Below are positions 1-8,700 of a stretch of DNA of 64,000 bases, in pieces. The notes beneath the pieces are model-generated. The model made no database searches. It was not told where the DNA came from and saw nothing but the letters and a program-made list of their open reading frames with translations. Source of the stretch: Synechococcus sp. CB0101 (GTDB lineage: Bacteria > Cyanobacteriota > Cyanobacteriia > PCC-6307 > Cyanobiaceae); assembly GCF_000179235.2 (NCBI RefSeq), contig NZ_CP039373.1, positions 248,032-312,031 of the forward strand, read 5' to 3'. A program made the translations under genes and the position numbers. Numbering within the stretch: the first letter of the stretch is position 1; every line of letters starts with the position of its first letter.

Positions 1-229
1 GTTGCGGGCGGAGGGGATTCCGCTGTTGGTGGGACCGTCGCGCAAGCGCTTTATCGGAGCGGTGCTCAACGAGCCACGGGCGAAGGCCCGGTTGTGGGGC
101 ACGGCAGCGGTGGTGGCGCAGTGCGTCTCAGCGGGTGTGGACGTGGTGCGTGTGCACGATGGCGGCCCGATCGTGCAGGTGGCGCGGATGGCGGATGCGC
201 TGTGGCGTTCAGGTCCCGTTAGCTGCTGA
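1..229 (+). CDS. folP: Dihydropteroate synthase, C-terminal part (cut by window edge)
   Basis: This is the last ~75 residues of dihydropteroate synthase, which joins p-aminobenzoate to the pterin pyrophosphate in cytoplasmic folate synthesis. The piece shows the GPSRKRFIG substrate-phosphate motif and the closing GVDVVRVHD strand; the RVHD end is typical of the family's last barrel strand. The frame is open to base 1, so the true start lies upstream of the window. The TGA at 227-229 overlaps by 11 bp the end of the opposite-strand GGDEF gene, so the two genes converge without room for a separate terminator. Confidence 0.9.
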   Translation, partial: LRAEGIPLLVGPSRKRFIGAVLNEPRAKARLWGTAAVVAQCVSAGVDVVRVHDGGPIVQVARMADALWRSGPVSC

Positions 230-2195
230 TCGGCGACGGCGCAGTCGCGATGCGCGGCTCCTCCATCTGTTTGGCGCGATACATGGCGGTATCGGCTGCT
301 TCCAGGAGGCCATCGGCATCGTCGGCGTGATCTGGCCAGCGCGCCACGCCGATGCTGGCGCTGATTCGGATGCCCTCGGGGAGTTCGGGCTGATCGTCGA
401 AGGGTTGTTGAAGCGCTTGGTTCAGCTTGCTGGCGATCAGTTGCAGTTGCTCCAGGGATGGTGCATCTGGAATCAACAGCACAAATTCATCCCCCCCTTG
501 ACGGCAGACGGTGTCGCTTTCACGCACACAGCTCTTCAATCGCTGGCCAACGGCCTGGAGCAGCACATCACCGGTTCCATGGCCATAGCGATCATTCACC
601 GGTTTGAATGCATCAAGATCGAGAAACAGAAGGCCAACCCCATGCCCCTGGCGTTTGGCCAACGCCAGGCTGAGATTCAACTCCTCAATTAAGAGAGCAC
701 GGTTGGCCAGGCCTGTGAGTGGATCATGGGTGGCCAGGTGACGCATTTGCTCCTGTTGGGTGTAGCGCTCACTCACATCACGCAAAAGTCCAACGAAATT
801 GGTGATCTGCTGCTGTGGATCTAAGACGGCTGTGATGGCGAGTTCATGGCGCATGATCTGGCCATTGCGATGGCGATTCCAGATTTCACCATTCCAATAC
901 CCCTTCTGGATAATGGCGCACCACATTTGCTCGTAAAAGCTACTTTCGTGGCGCCCGGAGCGCAGCAGATTTGTTTTTTGCCCCCGCGCCTCCAGTTCTG
1001 AATAGCCACTTAACTGGCTAAACGCTCCGTTCACTTGCAGGATCAAACCACTGGCATCGGTGACCACAATGCCAATGGGGCTGCTGTCGAACACCGTGCC
1101 CGCAAGAGCGCGTTCTTTGGACGCTTCAAGCTCTCGGGCCAGGGCTTGGCGCAGAGCTAAGTGGTTGTTTAACAACCCTTGGCTGATCAGGCCGGCCAGC
1201 GAACTGAGGCTGATCCCCAAGAAGGCCTGTAGCACGAGGCTTTGGGTCCAGCCGCTAGCACTGATCAATCGGTTGTCGAGCTGAATACCAATTTGCCAGG
1301 TTCGATTGGCAATCGTCACATCACGCCAGGTTGGGTGGGTGAGTCGATCACTGTTGGCTAGTTCAAGATTGTCAAATAGGAGATTGTCTGGGTTCTTGCG
1401 ATTGGTGTCATAGATCAAGACGCCCGCATCCTTTAACGCTGAGTGGCTCACGTTCGCCAGCGCCCCGTGGATCAGATCATCCATGCTTAGTGGTGAATAC
1501 GCCCATCCACGCAGCCTCCCGAAGCGTTCTTGGGGTGAGCTAAAGCTCACATTGGGATCTTTATAGATCGCTTGATACAGCAAGGCACCCACCTGGGGCC
1601 GTAGGGATGTTTCCTGCAGCAGTCGCACCGGTCCGCTCAGGGCTGGTTCGCCGTTGGATGCGGCCAGGTGCATCGCTTCACGGCGCGTGACCTGTGAATA
1701 CATGTCGAAGCCCAGCGCGCGTTGATTGCGCCAGTCGTTGGGCTCGAGATAGATGATTGCAGTGGTGAGTGCGCGAACACCCGGTGGTTTGATTTGAAAA
1801 TCGGGCAGGCCGTCGGCTCGAATGGTCTGCTCAAAGGCGGCGATGTTGTTATTCGGTACAACCGCGGCGAAGCCCACACCCTGAATGCCCTTGAGGGTGT
1901 TCCCTCCGCGGCTCAGGGTTTGATAGAAGGCCGAGAATTCCCTTCGGCTCACTTCACTGGAGGCGTTAAACAGCCCCACCACAGAATCGAGAACGGCGCT
2001 GTTGGTTTGCAGGCGCGTGCTGATGGCCTGCGTAATCTGACGGCCCAGTTCCAGCTCCAGGCGTTCGTGTTCCAGCTGATTCGCCTTGAGACAGCTCGAG
2101 CACCACAGCGTCGTTGCGAGCAGTCCAGAGCCCAGCACGAGCCAGGGCAGCGCCTTCAGGTTGAAGATCCTGCTGGAGAAGACGGGCACTCGCAT
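219..2195 (-). CDS. Membrane diguanylate cyclase (CHASE-PAS-GGDEF)
   Basis: Predicted to make cyclic di-GMP from two GTP at the inner membrane in response to an external ligand. Layout of the 658 residues: a first membrane segment at about 16-34, a periplasmic CHASE-type sensor at about 50-305, a second membrane segment at about 318-338, a PAS domain at about 362-475 and a GGDEF domain from about 485. The active-site GGDEF at 567-571 is intact. An RESD motif lies exactly five residues before it, which is the RxxD inhibitory I-site, so product feedback is likely. It follows the cellulose-synthase-like gene by 64 bp on the same strand. That gene has a c-di-GMP-binding PilZ domain, so this enzyme probably supplies its activator. 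The ligand of the CHASE domain is unknown. Confidence 0.88.
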   Translation of the reverse strand: MRVPVFSSRIFNLKALPWLVLGSGLLATTLWCSSCLKANQLEHERLELELGRQITQAISTRLQTNSAVLDSVVGLFNASSEVSRREFSAFYQTLSRGGNTLKGIQGVGFAAVVPNNNIAAFEQTIRADGLPDFQIKPPGVRALTTAIIYLEPNDWRNQRALGFDMYSQVTRREAMHLAASNGEPALSGPVRLLQETSLRPQVGALLYQAIYKDPNVSFSSPQERFGRLRGWAYSPLSMDDLIHGALANVSHSALKDAGVLIYDTNRKNPDNLLFDNLELANSDRLTHPTWRDVTIANRTWQIGIQLDNRLISASGWTQSLVLQAFLGISLSSLAGLISQGLLNNHLALRQALARELEASKERALAGTVFDSSPIGIVVTDASGLILQVNGAFSQLSGYSELEARGQKTNLLRSGRHESSFYEQMWCAIIQKGYWNGEIWNRHRNGQIMRHELAITAVLDPQQQITNFVGLLRDVSERYTQQEQMRHLATHDPLTGLANRALLIEELNLSLALAKRQGHGVGLLFLDLDAFKPVNDRYGHGTGDVLLQAVGQRLKSCVRESDTVCRQGGDEFVLLIPDAPSLEQLQLIASKLNQALQQPFDDQPELPEGIRISASIGVARWPDHADDADGLLEAADTAMYRAKQMEEPRIATAPSPISS

Positions 2196-2259
2196 GTCAG
2201 GAACCAGCGCCTCGTCTCAATCTAGGACTGTTCCACAGATTTGCCCACAGCTTCATGGC

Positions 2260-4227
2260 CTATCCGACCACATCTCGCCAGAGTTGTTCGAAGGTGCGTC
2301 TGAGCTGAACCCTCTGCGGTTGCTCGGCTGATTCAAATTCACCACTGAATGCATAGCCAATCAGCCCTTTTTGCTGTTCCAGGTTGAGTTCTGCAAATCT
2401 CATCACCCAGTCGTTGCGGTGGTTGCGCCAGAGGGCCTGCACTGGCACTTGGAGCCCATTGGCGAGTTCAAGGCGGGTGCAGTCTTCCCGTTCCCGAGAT
2501 GGGCCTGAATCGGCTGTGAAGCGCGCTCCACTCATGGAGAGATCGTCGAGGAGGCCTTCAATGATGGTTCCTGTTTCGGTGATCATTCGAGCAGGTTGTT
2601 GCACGTTGATGCGATGTTCTTGTCTCGGCTGCGGCCGCTCTTGAGACATCAACACGCACATCACCAGCAGGCTGACATTGATCGCACACCAGATCACTCC
2701 ATACAACGCCAGTTGCCAACCCACGCTGTTGGGTGCGCTGCTGAGGTCGAGAATGATCTGAAGCAGCACAACGATATTCAAGCCCAGCAGCGCGCAGCTG
2801 GGCAGAAAGGTTTGTTTGAAGAGAGCCTGTGTGAGATCCGAGTTGGCTGTGCCTTTGGGTGTCACGCTGAAGCCTTTGCTGTAGGGCCTCACCAACGACT
2901 GCAGCAGTTCTGGTAATAGGGCGAAGGCGCTGAACAGGCTCATCGCTTCGGTGAAGATCGGTAGGTAGAACGGCCGCATCAAGATGAACATGCAGCTGCT
3001 GACAGCCAGGATGAATGGCAGCTGGAAATCGAGAATTTCTTGCCCCTCGGTTGCTGGTAATGGCCCCACGCCCGTCATGAAAAAGATCAAGGGGATGAGC
3101 TGGAAAAAGATGCGCGATCCGTGCTGGATCATCCAGTAGAAGGGGAAAATGAGGATTTTGGTGATGAGGCTTAAGCCTTTTTCCTGGGCAATGATGTAAC
3201 CCACTTGGATATTGCCGCGCCCCCAGCGCTTGCGCTGCACAAAGAACGATTCCATGCTCTCCGCAGCCAGTCCCATGGTTGTGGCTTCCCGTAGATAAAT
3301 GGTTTTCCAGCCGCGCTTCACAAACGACACGGTTAAGAGGATGTCTTCTGTGATCGATGTGGTGGGAAAACCTCCGACAGCTCTCAGCGCTGCATTGCGA
3401 TGCATGCAACAGCTGCCGCAGCAGAAGGCCGCACCAACGGCATCGCGCCCCGGCATGATGATCTGGAAGAAGAAGGCCTGTTCACAACCCCAACTCCCGC
3501 TGATGTTCAAATTGTGTTGAATCGCATCGGGGTTGTAGAAGTTCTGCGGTGTTTGAACCGTGGCAATCGCAGGATCGTCGAAAAAACCAGCAAGGCGCCA
3601 CAGGCAGTTTTGATACGGGATGAAATCGGCATCGAGCAGCAGATTGAGGTCTCCATCGATGATGTTCAGCGCGTGGTTGATGTTGCCTGCTTTGGCGCCC
3701 TTACGATCCGATCGGATGATGTGGTGAGCCCCCACCTGCTCGCAACACTGCTGCAGCCAGGGCCTCTGGCCGTCATCCAGCACGTAGACCTTGAAGCGGG
3801 GATAGTCGAGTTGCAGTGCCGCCAGGATGGTTTTGGTCACCACCTCGGGGCCTTCGTTGTAGGTCGGGATCAGCACATCCACGCTGGGAATGGCGTCCTC
3901 TCCCTCGCGCGCATAGCGCTCGCGTAGGCGTTGTTCGGCCGCGTCTGCCTCGGCGCGTCGGTCGGTCAGCCAGGTGATCGTGACCAGAAACTGCACGTAT
4001 TCCAGGATCGCCAACATCTCCACCACCAGAACGGCGGCCATCCACCAACCCTCAGGGCTGGTGAAGAAAGAGCCGAATGGGAAATTGCCAATTCTCCAGT
4101 TCACATAGCGACCTGTGAACAAAGCGATCACCAGCACGAGCAGCACCCGCCGCTTGTTGCCTGCAGGCAGCAACAGCCCAAGGGCAGTGGGAATGGCGAG
4201 AGCTAGAAACGCGATCTCCAGACCCAT
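2260..4227 (-). CDS. Cellulose-synthase-like family 2 glycosyltransferase with PilZ domain
   Basis: Processive inner-membrane glycosyltransferase of the BcsA family that polymerises a beta-glucan (cellulose or a similar glycan) from a UDP-sugar and threads it through the membrane. All catalytic landmarks are present in the 655 residues: DDG at 151-153, DAD at 199-201, TED at 293-295 and QRKRW at 331-335. The FSVTPKG gating loop is at 453-459. Membrane helices flank the catalytic domain. The C-terminus is a PilZ domain with RQEHR at 535-539 and DLSMSGARF at 562-570, the two c-di-GMP-binding signatures. No bcsB, bcsC or bcsZ lies next to it; the upstream partner is a HlyD-like gene ending 5 bp before the start. 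Cyanobacterial XcsA-type systems use a HlyD/TolC route, so this is probably that type. The exact glycan cannot be read from sequence. Confidence 0.88.
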   Translation of the reverse strand: MGLEIAFLALAIPTALGLLLPAGNKRRVLLVLVIALFTGRYVNWRIGNFPFGSFFTSPEGWWMAAVLVVEMLAILEYVQFLVTITWLTDRRAEADAAEQRLRERYAREGEDAIPSVDVLIPTYNEGPEVVTKTILAALQLDYPRFKVYVLDDGQRPWLQQCCEQVGAHHIIRSDRKGAKAGNINHALNIIDGDLNLLLDADFIPYQNCLWRLAGFFDDPAIATVQTPQNFYNPDAIQHNLNISGSWGCEQAFFFQIIMPGRDAVGAAFCCGSCCMHRNAALRAVGGFPTTSITEDILLTVSFVKRGWKTIYLREATTMGLAAESMESFFVQRKRWGRGNIQVGYIIAQEKGLSLITKILIFPFYWMIQHGSRIFFQLIPLIFFMTGVGPLPATEGQEILDFQLPFILAVSSCMFILMRPFYLPIFTEAMSLFSAFALLPELLQSLVRPYSKGFSVTPKGTANSDLTQALFKQTFLPSCALLGLNIVVLLQIILDLSSAPNSVGWQLALYGVIWCAINVSLLVMCVLMSQERPQPRQEHRINVQQPARMITETGTIIEGLLDDLSMSGARFTADSGPSREREDCTRLELANGLQVPVQALWRNHRNDWVMRFAELNLEQQKGLIGYAFSGEFESAEQPQRVQLRRTFEQLWRDVVG

Positions 4228-4232
4228 GCGAA

Positions 4233-5381
4233 TCAGAGATCAACGCGGACCCGTTCCCCTAGCCGGCATTGCTGAGCCTTCAGGTCGTTGGGGTTGAGCT
4301 CGATCAGCACCCGACTGCGATCGGCGTGGGCGGGCCTGAACTTTGCGGCGCCAATGCTCTCGAGTCCGCTCAGGCTTTGCTCACCCCGGAGGCTCACAAT
4401 TTGGCCTGTGCTTCTTCGGCCGCTGAGCGGCCATTCAATTCGTACATCTTGTCCGAGCCGGAGATCTTTGAGTTTGCTTGCCTCAAATAACGCTTCCACC
4501 CGCATCTTGTTGCAGTTCACCGCCGTGAGCAATAGGTTGCCGTCATTCACTTCATCGCCCACGCTGGTCCGGCTCGTGAGAATCATTCCGGGGAACTGGG
4601 GCCTGTAGACGAAGGTTGATCGTTTCTGCGCTGCGGCAACCTCTTGCTGCAGTTGGTCGCGTTGATCCAGCAGTTCTTTACGACGGCTGGCCAGGCGATT
4701 CAACTCCACTTCCATGATTTCCATCCGGCGAGCGGATCGCCATGGAGTATCCATCAGCGTGTTGATTCCTGCGTTGGCTGATTGGAGCTCCAGTCTGAGA
4801 TTCTCCAGATCCTGGCGCTGATTGCCAACGCGCTGGGCCAGGCTGGTGGCCATGGTTTCGGAGCCGATCAGGGTGTCTTCATCCATGGCACCGGTCTTCA
4901 CCAGATCTCGATAGCGATTGGCCTGGCTCGCATACCGTCGCTGCTGAGCCTCGAGGTCTTGAAGTGTGCGTTCGGCCCGATCCACCTCGCTTTCAAGCCG
5001 AGCCACATTGATCTGCTTATAGCGTTGCAGTTCCTGAGTAACTGCATTGAGCTCCGCTTCGGTTTGGCGAAGTTTGAGCGTTGTACTGGCGAGCTTGGAG
5101 GCGTCGTTCCGGCTTGCCTGGATATCGAGCAGCATTTCACCCGCGCTGAATTGCTCGCCCGCCGTGAGGTTTTGCTGTTTAACAACGCCTTGAATTGGGC
5201 TATAAACACTCACAACATCGGCCGTTGTATAGGCCTCAATGGAGCGTTTCCGGAGCAGCACGGAGCCACCCGTGATCACAATCAAACCGGCGAGCCCACC
5301 ACCCGCCAACCGCCGCCACTGCTTCTCAGGAAGCTTGGCACTCACTCCTTCAATCCAGCCCTTCAGAGCTGTTGTTTCCAC
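4233..5381 (-). CDS. HlyD-family membrane fusion (periplasmic adaptor) protein
   Basis: Periplasmic adaptor that would link an inner-membrane exporter to an outer-membrane TolC-like channel. The 382 residues show one N-terminal membrane segment at about 27-44, a lipoyl-like half domain at about 60-90 (VYSPIQGVVKQQNLTAGE), a long helical coiled coil rich in Gln, Arg, Glu and Leu at about 95-265, a second lipoyl half, and a beta-barrel with VEALFEASKLKDLRLGQDVRIEWP. It is first in an operon with the cellulose-synthase-like gene and the diguanylate cyclase. This suggests that it carries the polysaccharide across the periplasm in place of BcsB/BcsC. No ABC or RND pump lies nearby. Confidence 0.85.
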   Translation of the reverse strand: METTALKGWIEGVSAKLPEKQWRRLAGGGLAGLIVITGGSVLLRKRSIEAYTTADVVSVYSPIQGVVKQQNLTAGEQFSAGEMLLDIQASRNDASKLASTTLKLRQTEAELNAVTQELQRYKQINVARLESEVDRAERTLQDLEAQQRRYASQANRYRDLVKTGAMDEDTLIGSETMATSLAQRVGNQRQDLENLRLELQSANAGINTLMDTPWRSARRMEIMEVELNRLASRRKELLDQRDQLQQEVAAAQKRSTFVYRPQFPGMILTSRTSVGDEVNDGNLLLTAVNCNKMRVEALFEASKLKDLRLGQDVRIEWPLSGRRSTGQIVSLRGEQSLSGLESIGAAKFRPAHADRSRVLIELNPNDLKAQQCRLGERVRVDL

Positions 5382-5455: not shown

Positions 5456-5713
5456 CTACAGCGTTGCCGCCCCAAGGCTGGTGAGCACGCGCTTCCAGTA
5501 AGGCGTGGTGTACCAGTCGTTGAGTTGTTCATCCGTCAGGGTGAGCGTCATCAGCGCTTCCATCCGCAGCAGATCGGCCATGCTGAGTTGGAGCTGCAGC
5601 TTGGCGGCGAAGGCGATCACCTCATCTGGGCTACTGCAACGCGAAAGCTCCTGCTGAAGAAGGGTGTCGTCCTTCAGCAGGAGCTTGAGGCGCATGGCTT
5701 GGGCGGATGTCAT
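5456..5713 (-). CDS. Nif11-like small protein downstream of chlH
   Basis: An 85-residue protein starting at the ATG 5711-5713, 13 bp after the chlH stop, so it is probably co-transcribed with chlH. The pattern KDDTLLQQELSRCSSPDEVI followed by an Ala-rich helix and SMADLL matches the Nif11-like domain seen in nitrogen-fixation regions and in leader peptides of nitrile-hydratase-type RiPPs. There is no Gly-Gly or Gly-Ala cleavage site followed by a Cys/Ser/Thr-rich core; the protein ends with a helical stretch and SLGAATL. It therefore looks like a stand-alone domain rather than a RiPP precursor. Function unknown; the link to chlorophyll synthesis is by position only. Confidence 0.65.
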   Translation of the reverse strand: MTSAQAMRLKLLLKDDTLLQQELSRCSSPDEVIAFAAKLQLQLSMADLLRMEALMTLTLTDEQLNDWYTTPYWKRVLTSLGAATL

Positions 5714-5726
5714 GCGCCTGGGGGAT

Positions 5727-8700
5727 TCAGTTGGCGACGCCCTCGATCCGGTCTTCGATCTCCTGGTAGATCTCCTGCAGTTGCTGAATGTTCTCATCGG
5801 AGGTTTCCCAGTAACCGCGGCCATTCACCTCGAGCAGCGTGCCCACAATGCGGCGGAAGCTGTGGGGGTTCAGCTCCATCAACCGCTTTCGCATCTCTGG
5901 GTCGTTGATGAAGGTTTCGTTGGCTTCTTCGTACACGAAGTTGTCAACGGCGCCGCTGGTGGCGCTCCAACCCAGGGTGAAGTTGAGGCGCTTGGCCACT
6001 TCACGCACACCCTCGTAGCCCGAGTTGAGCATGCCCTCGTACCACTTGGGATTGAGCAGCTTCGTGCGGGAATCCAGGCGGATGGTTTCGCTCAGAGAGC
6101 GCACCTGGGCATTGGCGGTGGTGGTATCGGCGATGTAGCTCGCCGGTGCCTTGCCGTCGTCGCGCAGGCCCTGGATCAGCTTGGTGGGATCGCTGTCGAA
6201 GTAGTGGCTCACATCGGTGAGTGAGATCTCGGCTGAATCCAGGTTCTGGAAGGTCACATCGGCGGTCTTCATCACCGATTCGAACACCTCGCGTTTCTGG
6301 TTCATCTCGCCGGGGTTATCGGCGTTGAACGCGAAGGTCTTGCGGGAGAGATACATCTCCTGCAGTTCGTTCTCCTCTTCCCAGGTGCTGTTCTCCACCG
6401 CAAGGTTCACGTTGGAGCTGTAGCTGCCGCTGGCGTTCGAGAACACCCGTGTAGCGGCGTCACGCAAGGAGATGCCTTCCTTCTCCGCTTGCTCCTGGGA
6501 GTGCTTGCGCACGAAGTTCATCTCCAGGGGCTCATCGGCCTCGGCGGCCATCTTCACGCCCTGATCGATCAGGGCCATCTGGTTGATGAACAGGTCGCGG
6601 AACACGCCGCTGCAGTTCACCACCACGTCGATGCGAGGACGACCCAGTTCTTCCAGGGAGATCAGCTCCAGCTTGTTCACCCGGCCCAGGGAATCGGGTA
6701 CCGGCTTGACGCCGATGAACCAGAGGATCTGCGCGAGCGACTCGCCGTAGGTCTTGATGTTGTCGGTGCCCCAGAGCACACAGGCGATGGTTTCAGGCCA
6801 GGTGCCCTGCTCCTGTTTCTGCCGCTCGATCAGTTTGTCGACCACGCCCTTGGCCGCCGCGATGGCGGCTTTGGTGGGGATCGCCTGGGGATCAAGGGCG
6901 TGCAGGTTCTTGCCGCTGGGCAGCACACCGGGGTTGCGGATCGGGTCGCCGCCGGGGCCCGGCAGCACGTATTCACCATCGAGTGCCCGCAGCAGGCTCT
7001 GCATTTCCAGATCCGCGCACACCTGCTCGAGGCAGAACTGCAGGTAGCCGAACAGTTTGTCGAGCTCGGCCTGGTCCACATCCGGGAAACCGGCGCTACG
7101 GCAGGCACTCAGCCAGGGGCTGGGCAGCTTGAAGCCGAACTGCTCCAGCAGGTTGAAGAACCAGGCGAAGTTGCGGCGTAGGGTGACGCGCCCATCGCTG
7201 CCGGTCACGGCCTGCACCATGGCCCCCACGGCGGCCCGGGATGTCTCGGTAATGACGCGGTTGAGCTCCACATCGGCGAGCACACCGTCGTCATTGCCGG
7301 CATAGATGTCGGTGATGGTGCGGCCTTTGCTCTCGGCCAGCAGGGCCGGCAGGGAACGGATGCCGTCTTCCTCGCGCTCCAGGGCGGCGATGTTCACCAG
7401 CGTGGCGATCGCTTCCTCGGCGGTGGGGGGTTTGCCGATGGTGTGCAGGCCGCAGGGCAGCAGCCGGCTTTCGATCTCCATCAGCTGGCGGTACACCGCG
7501 CCGATCACGGCGTCGCGTGCATCGAGATCCAGCTCGGAGGCATCCACCTCCGGCAACTGCACGTCTTTGTCGAGGTTGCACTGGCGGGCCGTTTCCACCA
7601 CCGCATTCACGATCTGAATGCCGCGGGAGCTCTCACGCAGCTGCTGGTAGGAGCCCACCAGCTCGCCCAGCTCCTTCAGACCCTTGTAGAGACCAGCATT
7701 TTCAGCGGGCGGGGTGAGGTAGGAGATGGTTTCGGCATAGCCGCGCCGCTTGGCGATCGTGGCTTCCGAGGGGTTGTTGGCGGCGTAGTAGTAGAGGTTG
7801 GGCAGTGCGCCGATCAGTGAATCGGGGTAGCAGGTTTCGCTCATGCCCATCTGCTTGCCGGGCATGAACTCCAGCGAGCCATGGGTGCCGAAGTGAAGCA
7901 CCGCGTCGGCACCCCACACCTTCTCGAGGTAGGTGTAGTAGGCCGCGAAGCCGTGGTGCGGGCTGGCGCTGCGGGAGTAGAGCAGGCGCATCGGGTCGCC
8001 TTCGTAGCCGAAGGTGGGCTGCACGCCAACGAACACGTTGCCGAAGTGGCGGCCGAAGATCAGCAGGTTGGTGCCATCGGTGTTGAGGGTGCCGGGGGGT
8101 TTGCCCCAGTTCTCCTCCAGTCGCTCCGAATAGGGCGTGAGGCGTTCGTACTCCTCCACGCTCATGCGGTGGGCAATCGCCAGCTCCGGTGCACCTTCAA
8201 GCGCCTCGGGGTCCTGGAGCACCGCCTCCATCAGCGCCTTGGGCGTTGCGGGCAGATCGTTCACCTCGTAGCCCTTGGCGCGCATCTCCTCGAGCACCCG
8301 GTAGATCGAACCGAAAACGTCGAGGTAGGCCGCGGTGCCCACGTTGCCCTTGTCGGGCGGGAAGCTGAACACGGTGATCGCCAGCTTCTTCTCGCTGCGG
8401 GGCTTGACCCGCAATGAGGCCCAGCGGATGGCGCGCTCGGCGATGGCATCCACCCGGTCTTGAAGGGTGTGGGCCTTGCCGGTGGCATCGTCGCGGCCGC
8501 TCAGCACGATCGGTTCGATCGCACCATCGAGTTCGGGGATGGCGATTTGCAGGGCCACCTGCACCGGGTGCAGACCGAGATCGCTCTCCTCCCACTCCTG
8601 GGTGGTTTGGAACACCAGAGGCAGCGCCACCATGTAGGGGCGATTGAGCTTCTTCAGCACCTCGATCGCCTTGGGGTGGTCCTGGCGGGCAGGGCCGCCC

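Follow-up and report, generated by a model that had tools for sequence, protein, structure and literature searches.

A probable horizontally acquired, bgsBA-like glucan operon with its own sensor cyclase in Synechococcus sp. CB0101

Polysaccharide synthases that are paired with an HlyD-type adaptor and occur without bcsB and bcsC are known as the XcsA/XcsB pair of cyanobacteria (PMC12430437) and the bgsBA pair of rhizobia (PMC9495663). In the cellulose-making XcsA-XcsB(-XcsC)-TolC system of Thermosynechococcus vulcanus and Synechococcus elongatus, a PilZ-bearing synthase lies beside its adaptor and the TolC-like channel is unlinked, an export model that the review itself terms unproven (PMC12430437). 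In the bgsBA system of Sinorhizobium meliloti (SMb20390-20391) and Rhizobium etli, which makes a mixed-linkage beta-glucan, the HlyD-type gene directly precedes a family 2 glycosyltransferase (GT2) synthase related to cyclic diguanylate (c-di-GMP); BgsA of S. meliloti has no PilZ domain and binds c-di-GMP through another domain (PMC5567048). Such glucan was on record from two bacterial species in a 2021 review (PMC7997180), and clostridia were added in 2023 (PMC10374906). Here we describe a cluster of adaptor, synthase and sensor diguanylate cyclase genes at the start of a 64,000-nucleotide stretch of the Synechococcus sp. CB0101 genome (contig NZ_CP039373.1, positions 248,032 to 312,031; the whole stretch is called the window). 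With moderate confidence, we regard it as a horizontally acquired bgsBA-type beta-glucan module that is coupled to a sensor cyclase and works as proposed below.

The three genes form a single tight cluster, with all frames open on the minus strand and gaps of 5 bp between adaptor and synthase and 64 bp between synthase and cyclase (Table 1). A preliminary description of this DNA had given the same genes, order, strand and gaps, which the frames and the Pfam matches bear out, and the motifs it had named (QRKRW, RQEHR, DLSMSG and the cyclase I-site) are all present in the motif alignments. Of the 25 genomes of the genus, 6 have the module, and each time it lies between chlH and the convergent folP-tpiA pair. 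The arrangement is not a chance one, since the five other genomes retain the gene order with short gaps (14-73 bp between synthase and cyclase, 3-5 bp between adaptor and synthase); in one of them (G200) the reading of the adaptor frame differs at its end. The guanine-cytosine (GC) content of adaptor, synthase and cyclase is 56-57%, below the 65% of the window and the 63.5% of chlH. The operon is real, conserved and patchily distributed, and what is new is a PilZ-bearing bgsBA-type pair with a cis-encoded sensor cyclase, in picocyanobacteria.

Table 1. Features of the operon region (positions in the window)
Feature	Position	Strand	Details
CHASE-PAS-GGDEF diguanylate cyclase	219..2195	-	658 amino acids (aa); GGDEF and I-site RESD intact; Pfam, 12-orthologue alignment
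GGDEF domain of cyclase	264..734	-	residues 488-644; Pfam
PAS domain of cyclase	774..1094	-	residues 368-474; Pfam
CHASE sensor domain	1374..1955	-	residues 81-274; Pfam; presumably periplasmic, from flanking hydrophobic stretches
Putative GT2 beta-glucan synthase, BgsA lineage, C-terminal PilZ	2260..4227	-	655 aa; Pfam, trees, approximately unbiased (AU) test, model
PilZ domain of synthase	2347..2631	-	residues 533-627; Pfam, motif alignment, six-stranded barrel in model
HlyD-type membrane-fusion adaptor, BgsB/XcsB-like	4233..5381	-	382 aa, GTG start; Pfam, place in relatives
Nif11-like small open reading frame	5456..5713	-	85 aa; profile scores below curated cut-offs

The evidence for a rhizobial rather than a cyanobacterial affinity comes from the synthase. 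When 300 genomes of the family were compared, 6 had a homologue with at least 50% identity, and these 6 belong to the window's genus; the others are near 30%. Across 244 genomes of the phylum no other synthase match exceeded 36%, short fragments aside. Identity to cyanobacterial synthases is 29-35%, versus 38.6% over 567 residues to the best named match beyond the genus, a synthase on pSymB of S. meliloti (403,746-405,398 of NC_003078). This gene, which has an HlyD gene before it and a divergent sensor cyclase beside it, is presumed to be bgsA, given where it lies, the adjoining HlyD gene and published work. The window cyclase, by contrast, is co-directional with the pair and downstream of it, and its host is a cyanobacterium. 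Homologues from Elioraea and sphingomonads reach 36-39%. In three trees, the window synthase group joined rhizobial BgsA and alphaproteobacterial enzymes (support 98 in the quick tree and 100/99 in each of the two careful ones). The BgsA proteins of S. meliloti and R. phaseoli and the Elioraea and sphingomonad homologues fall inside this clade, and BcsA of Escherichia coli and of Cereibacter sphaeroides and all cyanobacterial synthases fall outside it. Next to it is a second alphaproteobacterial clade, whose members include a crd-like synthase from an Agrobacterium pAt plasmid, used as a stand-in for true CrdS, which is not in the trees. The cyanobacterial set included a genome that we take to be Thermosynechococcus elongatus BP-1 (G388), with a gene at 5.5-7.4 kb, where tll0007 (XcsA) is expected. 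Grouping the window synthases with the cyanobacterial ones was rejected by the AU test (log-likelihood difference 74.6, p 0.000222). Because the trees group the synthase with BgsA and the AU test rejects a cyanobacterial placement, the enzyme is, judged by sequence, bgsBA-like and not a member of the cyanobacterial XcsA or the Bcs cellulose clades. Its nesting among alphaproteobacterial synthases suggests transfer into the genus from a source of that type. The plain cellulose reading was dropped on the same trees and test, and with it the earlier label of a cellulose-type system.

Two other synthases of the family deserve mention. The second BcsA-like synthase of the genome (940 aa, without PilZ; L061, G000:C1:2144000-2163000, 5631-8450, minus strand) belongs to a cyanobacterial clade in which further genomes of the family are represented. 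Another genus of the family has a distantly related HlyD-synthase pair (G222; synthase 29% identical, adaptor 26%), which was omitted from the careful trees as a long branch. Situated at 9386-12575 of L060 (G222:C1:1337000-1356000), it has a GC content of 32-36% inside flanks of 46-49%, which looks like a low-GC island, and its synthase has no PilZ match.

The window synthase carries a GT2 domain (Pfam Glyco_tranf_2_3, 1e-25) and a PilZ domain (3.5e-5; 24.5 bits, slightly above the cut-off of 22.5). Its catalytic motifs are D151-D152, D199AD201, S291ITED295 and Q331RKRW335, with the gating loop FSVTPKG, and the motif alignment shows an FCCGS and FFVQRxRW context that is common to the BgsA clade. 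E323, invariant in 25 sequences, equals the gating E371 of Rhodobacter sphaeroides BcsA by its spacing to QxxRW. The synthase has the hallmarks of a PilZ receptor, namely the motifs RxxxR (R535QEHR539) and (D/N)xSxxG (D562LSMSG567) and, in a confident AlphaFold2 model (mean predicted local distance difference test score 86.8, predicted template modelling (TM) score 0.85), a six-stranded C-terminal barrel. The six best matches to this model in the PDB are BcsA structures (TM-score 0.83-0.89). The synthase shares the GT2 core, gating loop, PilZ domain and fold with Bcs of E. coli and R. sphaeroides, and differs from it in its separate clade and in having three rather than four helices N-terminal to the GT domain in the model.

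The canonical PilZ domain is also where the window synthase departs from S. meliloti BgsA, which gave no Pfam PilZ match. Most members of the BgsA clade retain the PilZ motifs, and a PilZ-less C-terminus marks only the rhizobial branch, because three other clade members (L100, L101 and L105) have Pfam PilZ above the cut-off, as the window synthase does. Most simply, PilZ would be an old feature of the clade that rhizobial BgsA lost or replaced. Within the genus the domain appears to be diverging, as the synthase of G165 scores under the PilZ cut-off. In CrdS and BgsA, a deletion of 19 residues following the DD motif has been described (PMC6821405), but it was discarded as a marker, since in our alignment E. 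coli BcsA is without the insertion there too. The sole other PilZ protein of the genome stands alone (153 aa) and adjoins the urease cluster (L004, G000:C1:1455000-1470000, 7188-7649, minus strand).

The cyclase combines CHASE (Pfam, 7.6e-51), PAS (1.8e-13) and GGDEF (2.6e-46) domains, and its residues 38-249 match the sensor chain of a histidine kinase in a solved structure (6k62, E 1.2e-18). The I-site R558ESD561 precedes GGDEF by five residues, and all 12 aligned orthologues retain the RxSD and GGDEF residues; the protein thus has the signature and the I-site RxxD predicted for an active diguanylate cyclase. The CHASE domain makes control of the operon by an outside ligand plausible.

Taken together, the operon probably senses an outside cue, makes c-di-GMP and switches on the export of a glucose polymer. 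The CHASE domain would detect a periplasmic ligand and relay the signal via PAS to GGDEF, which would then make c-di-GMP under I-site feedback. By analogy with R. sphaeroides BcsA, a salt bridge between R535 and E323 would keep the gating loop shut, and binding of c-di-GMP to the RxxxR/DxSxxG PilZ would free it. The synthase may then polymerise uridine diphosphate-glucose and drive the chain through its own membrane channel, from which the adaptor would carry it over the periplasm to an unlinked TolC-like channel.

The export side of this scheme was followed with profile searches of the whole genome (2,789,616 bases in one contig). The adaptor matches Pfam HlyD_3 (3.3e-10) and also HlyD_D23, and nearly all of the nearer alphaproteobacterial loci have an HlyD gene directly next to the synthase, as do some cyanobacterial loci. 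Together with XcsAB (PMC12430437) and bgsBA (PMC9495663), these pairs show that the layout, put forward earlier as a compact alternative, is not new. Its reported lack of bcsB, bcsC and bcsZ holds, as the genome gave no match to BcsB, BCSC_C or GH8 (the bcsZ family), nor to GH16 (lichenase). There is no endoglucanase gene next to the operon; genome-wide, GH8 and GH16 were the only such families searched, XcsC's own family not being established. A search for a TolC partner, which the preliminary description had called for, gave four TolC-like loci (nine domain matches), all unlinked to the operon, and none could be tied to it.

By analogy with BgsA, we tentatively predict a product that is either a mixed-linkage (1,3;1,4)-beta-glucan or closely related to one; cellulose is a less likely product, and (1,3)-glucan or others account for the remainder. 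The enzyme RiGT2 of Romboutsia ilealis, which also bears a PilZ domain, was shown to make mixed-linkage glucan (PMC10374906), but it belongs to a Gram-positive lineage outside the present trees, and c-di-GMP was not found to affect it. In the literature searched, which left out most subscription journals, we found no cyanobacterial synthase of mixed-linkage glucan reported. The fullest version of our proposal, in which picocyanobacteria make mixed-linkage beta-glucan under ligand-controlled c-di-GMP by means of a PilZ-bearing BgsA from an alphaproteobacterial-type source, is more doubtful than the product prediction itself.

Several observations weigh against the bgsBA-type interpretation. The product is proven only in the rhizobial branch, and the window group stands as sister to all other members of the BgsA clade, so the prediction of the product is a long extrapolation. 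The PilZ difference from S. meliloti BgsA also counts here. The adaptor is only 21% identical to BgsB of S. meliloti, and the adaptor tree, with its long branches, ties it to neither BgsB nor XcsB. The outer-membrane channel is unlinked, and the genome has eight GGDEF loci, seven of them besides the operon cyclase, and three EAL loci above the cut-off, which can share one c-di-GMP pool; on both counts the earlier term self-contained was an overstatement. Finally, LA31 (G064) and two genomes from a different genus (G193, G181) have only the cyclase at the chlH-folP site, so its coupling to the adaptor-synthase pair is not fixed. As a side observation, L062 (G000:C1:172000-191000) has two GGDEF-EAL loci, another GGDEF locus and a TolC-like gene grouped within ~12 kb.

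The cyclase-only sites and the further GGDEF loci would also fit genes that are neighbours and not partners, the cyclase having occupied the chlH-folP site for longer and serving targets of its own, and the synthase answering the global c-di-GMP pool. The adaptor-synthase pair exists in two forms, one in the window, G200, G150 and G251 and the other in G281 and G165 (synthases ~50% and adaptors ~40% apart), and cyclase identities cut across them. The G150 cyclase is nearest to that of LA31 (81%), followed by G165 and G281 (74-75%) and the window (71%), while the G150 synthase is 80% identical to the window's versus 52% to those of G281 and G165. The histories of synthase and cyclase thus disagree in their sequences, which indicates that parts of the operon were exchanged or replaced at the site. 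However, wherever the synthase occurs (six genomes), a same-strand cyclase comes 14-73 bp behind it, whichever form of the pair is present, and we consider mere neighbourhood rather unlikely.

The chlH-folP site (loci L216-L236) appears as a presence/absence hot spot that is empty, cyclase-only, filled with either form of the full operon, or occupied by other sequence. chlH and folP are adjacent, with <70 bp between matches, in six genomes (G263, G236, G115, G269, G209 and G258) and ~700 bp apart in G299; apart from these, the operon genomes and those with the cyclase alone, unrelated sequence or a contig end follows chlH.

A second alternative, in effect the one put forward in the preliminary description, is a cyanobacterial XcsA-XcsB-TolC-type system, with cellulose as the product of the PilZ synthase and the HlyD protein standing in for BcsB and BcsC. 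The layout and the PilZ domain are as in Synpcc7942_1398/1399 (PMC12430437), the host and the unlinked TolC-like channel agree, the fold is nearest to BcsA, though this is expected of any family member, and the adaptor tree decides neither way. We nevertheless find it unlikely: the synthase trees, AU test and identities described above place the enzyme elsewhere, it scores 353 bits against NCBIfam CelA (TIGR03030), far under the cut-off of 699, the genome gave no GH8 match, the endoglucanase is not adjacent, and a cyclase lies inside the cluster. That the synthase makes a curdlan-like (1,3)-beta-glucan or another glycan is improbable: the crd-like pAt cluster, with its HlyD-type gene, GT2 synthase and a gene of unknown type, resembles crdASC and lies in the sister clade, and CrdS and BgsA are near relatives (PMC6821405), but the window enzyme falls on the BgsA side of the split (100/99, in trees without true CrdS), no PilZ is reported for the curdlan system, and the third crd gene is absent from the operon.

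If the bgsBA-type interpretation is true, a (1,3;1,4)-beta-glucan pathway of rhizobia (clostridia use another enzyme) has reached oxygenic picoplankton, as the first mixed-linkage beta-glucan in cyanobacteria and with direct bearing on picocyanobacterial aggregation and sinking. PilZ control would then be the earlier condition, later abandoned by rhizobial BgsA, and the presence of PilZ-bearing and PilZ-less enzymes in one clade offers a test of how c-di-GMP control of glucan synthases was rebuilt. Genomes with an empty, cyclase-only or complete chlH-folP site are natural knock-outs for comparing attachment and aggregation. With the product confirmed, the operon would be of greater interest than a cellulose operon; otherwise its interest is modest.

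Promoter and terminator scans of the operon region gave little beyond the level of shuffled sequence, and the region had no Rfam match. The Nif11-like reading frame between chlH and the adaptor, which the preliminary description had overlooked, scores just under the cut-offs of both Pfam Nif11 (22.0 bits) and TIGR03798 (20.8 bits). Whether it is part of the operon is uncertain; it is conserved across the six genomes with the operon and in LA31, where the cyclase stands alone.

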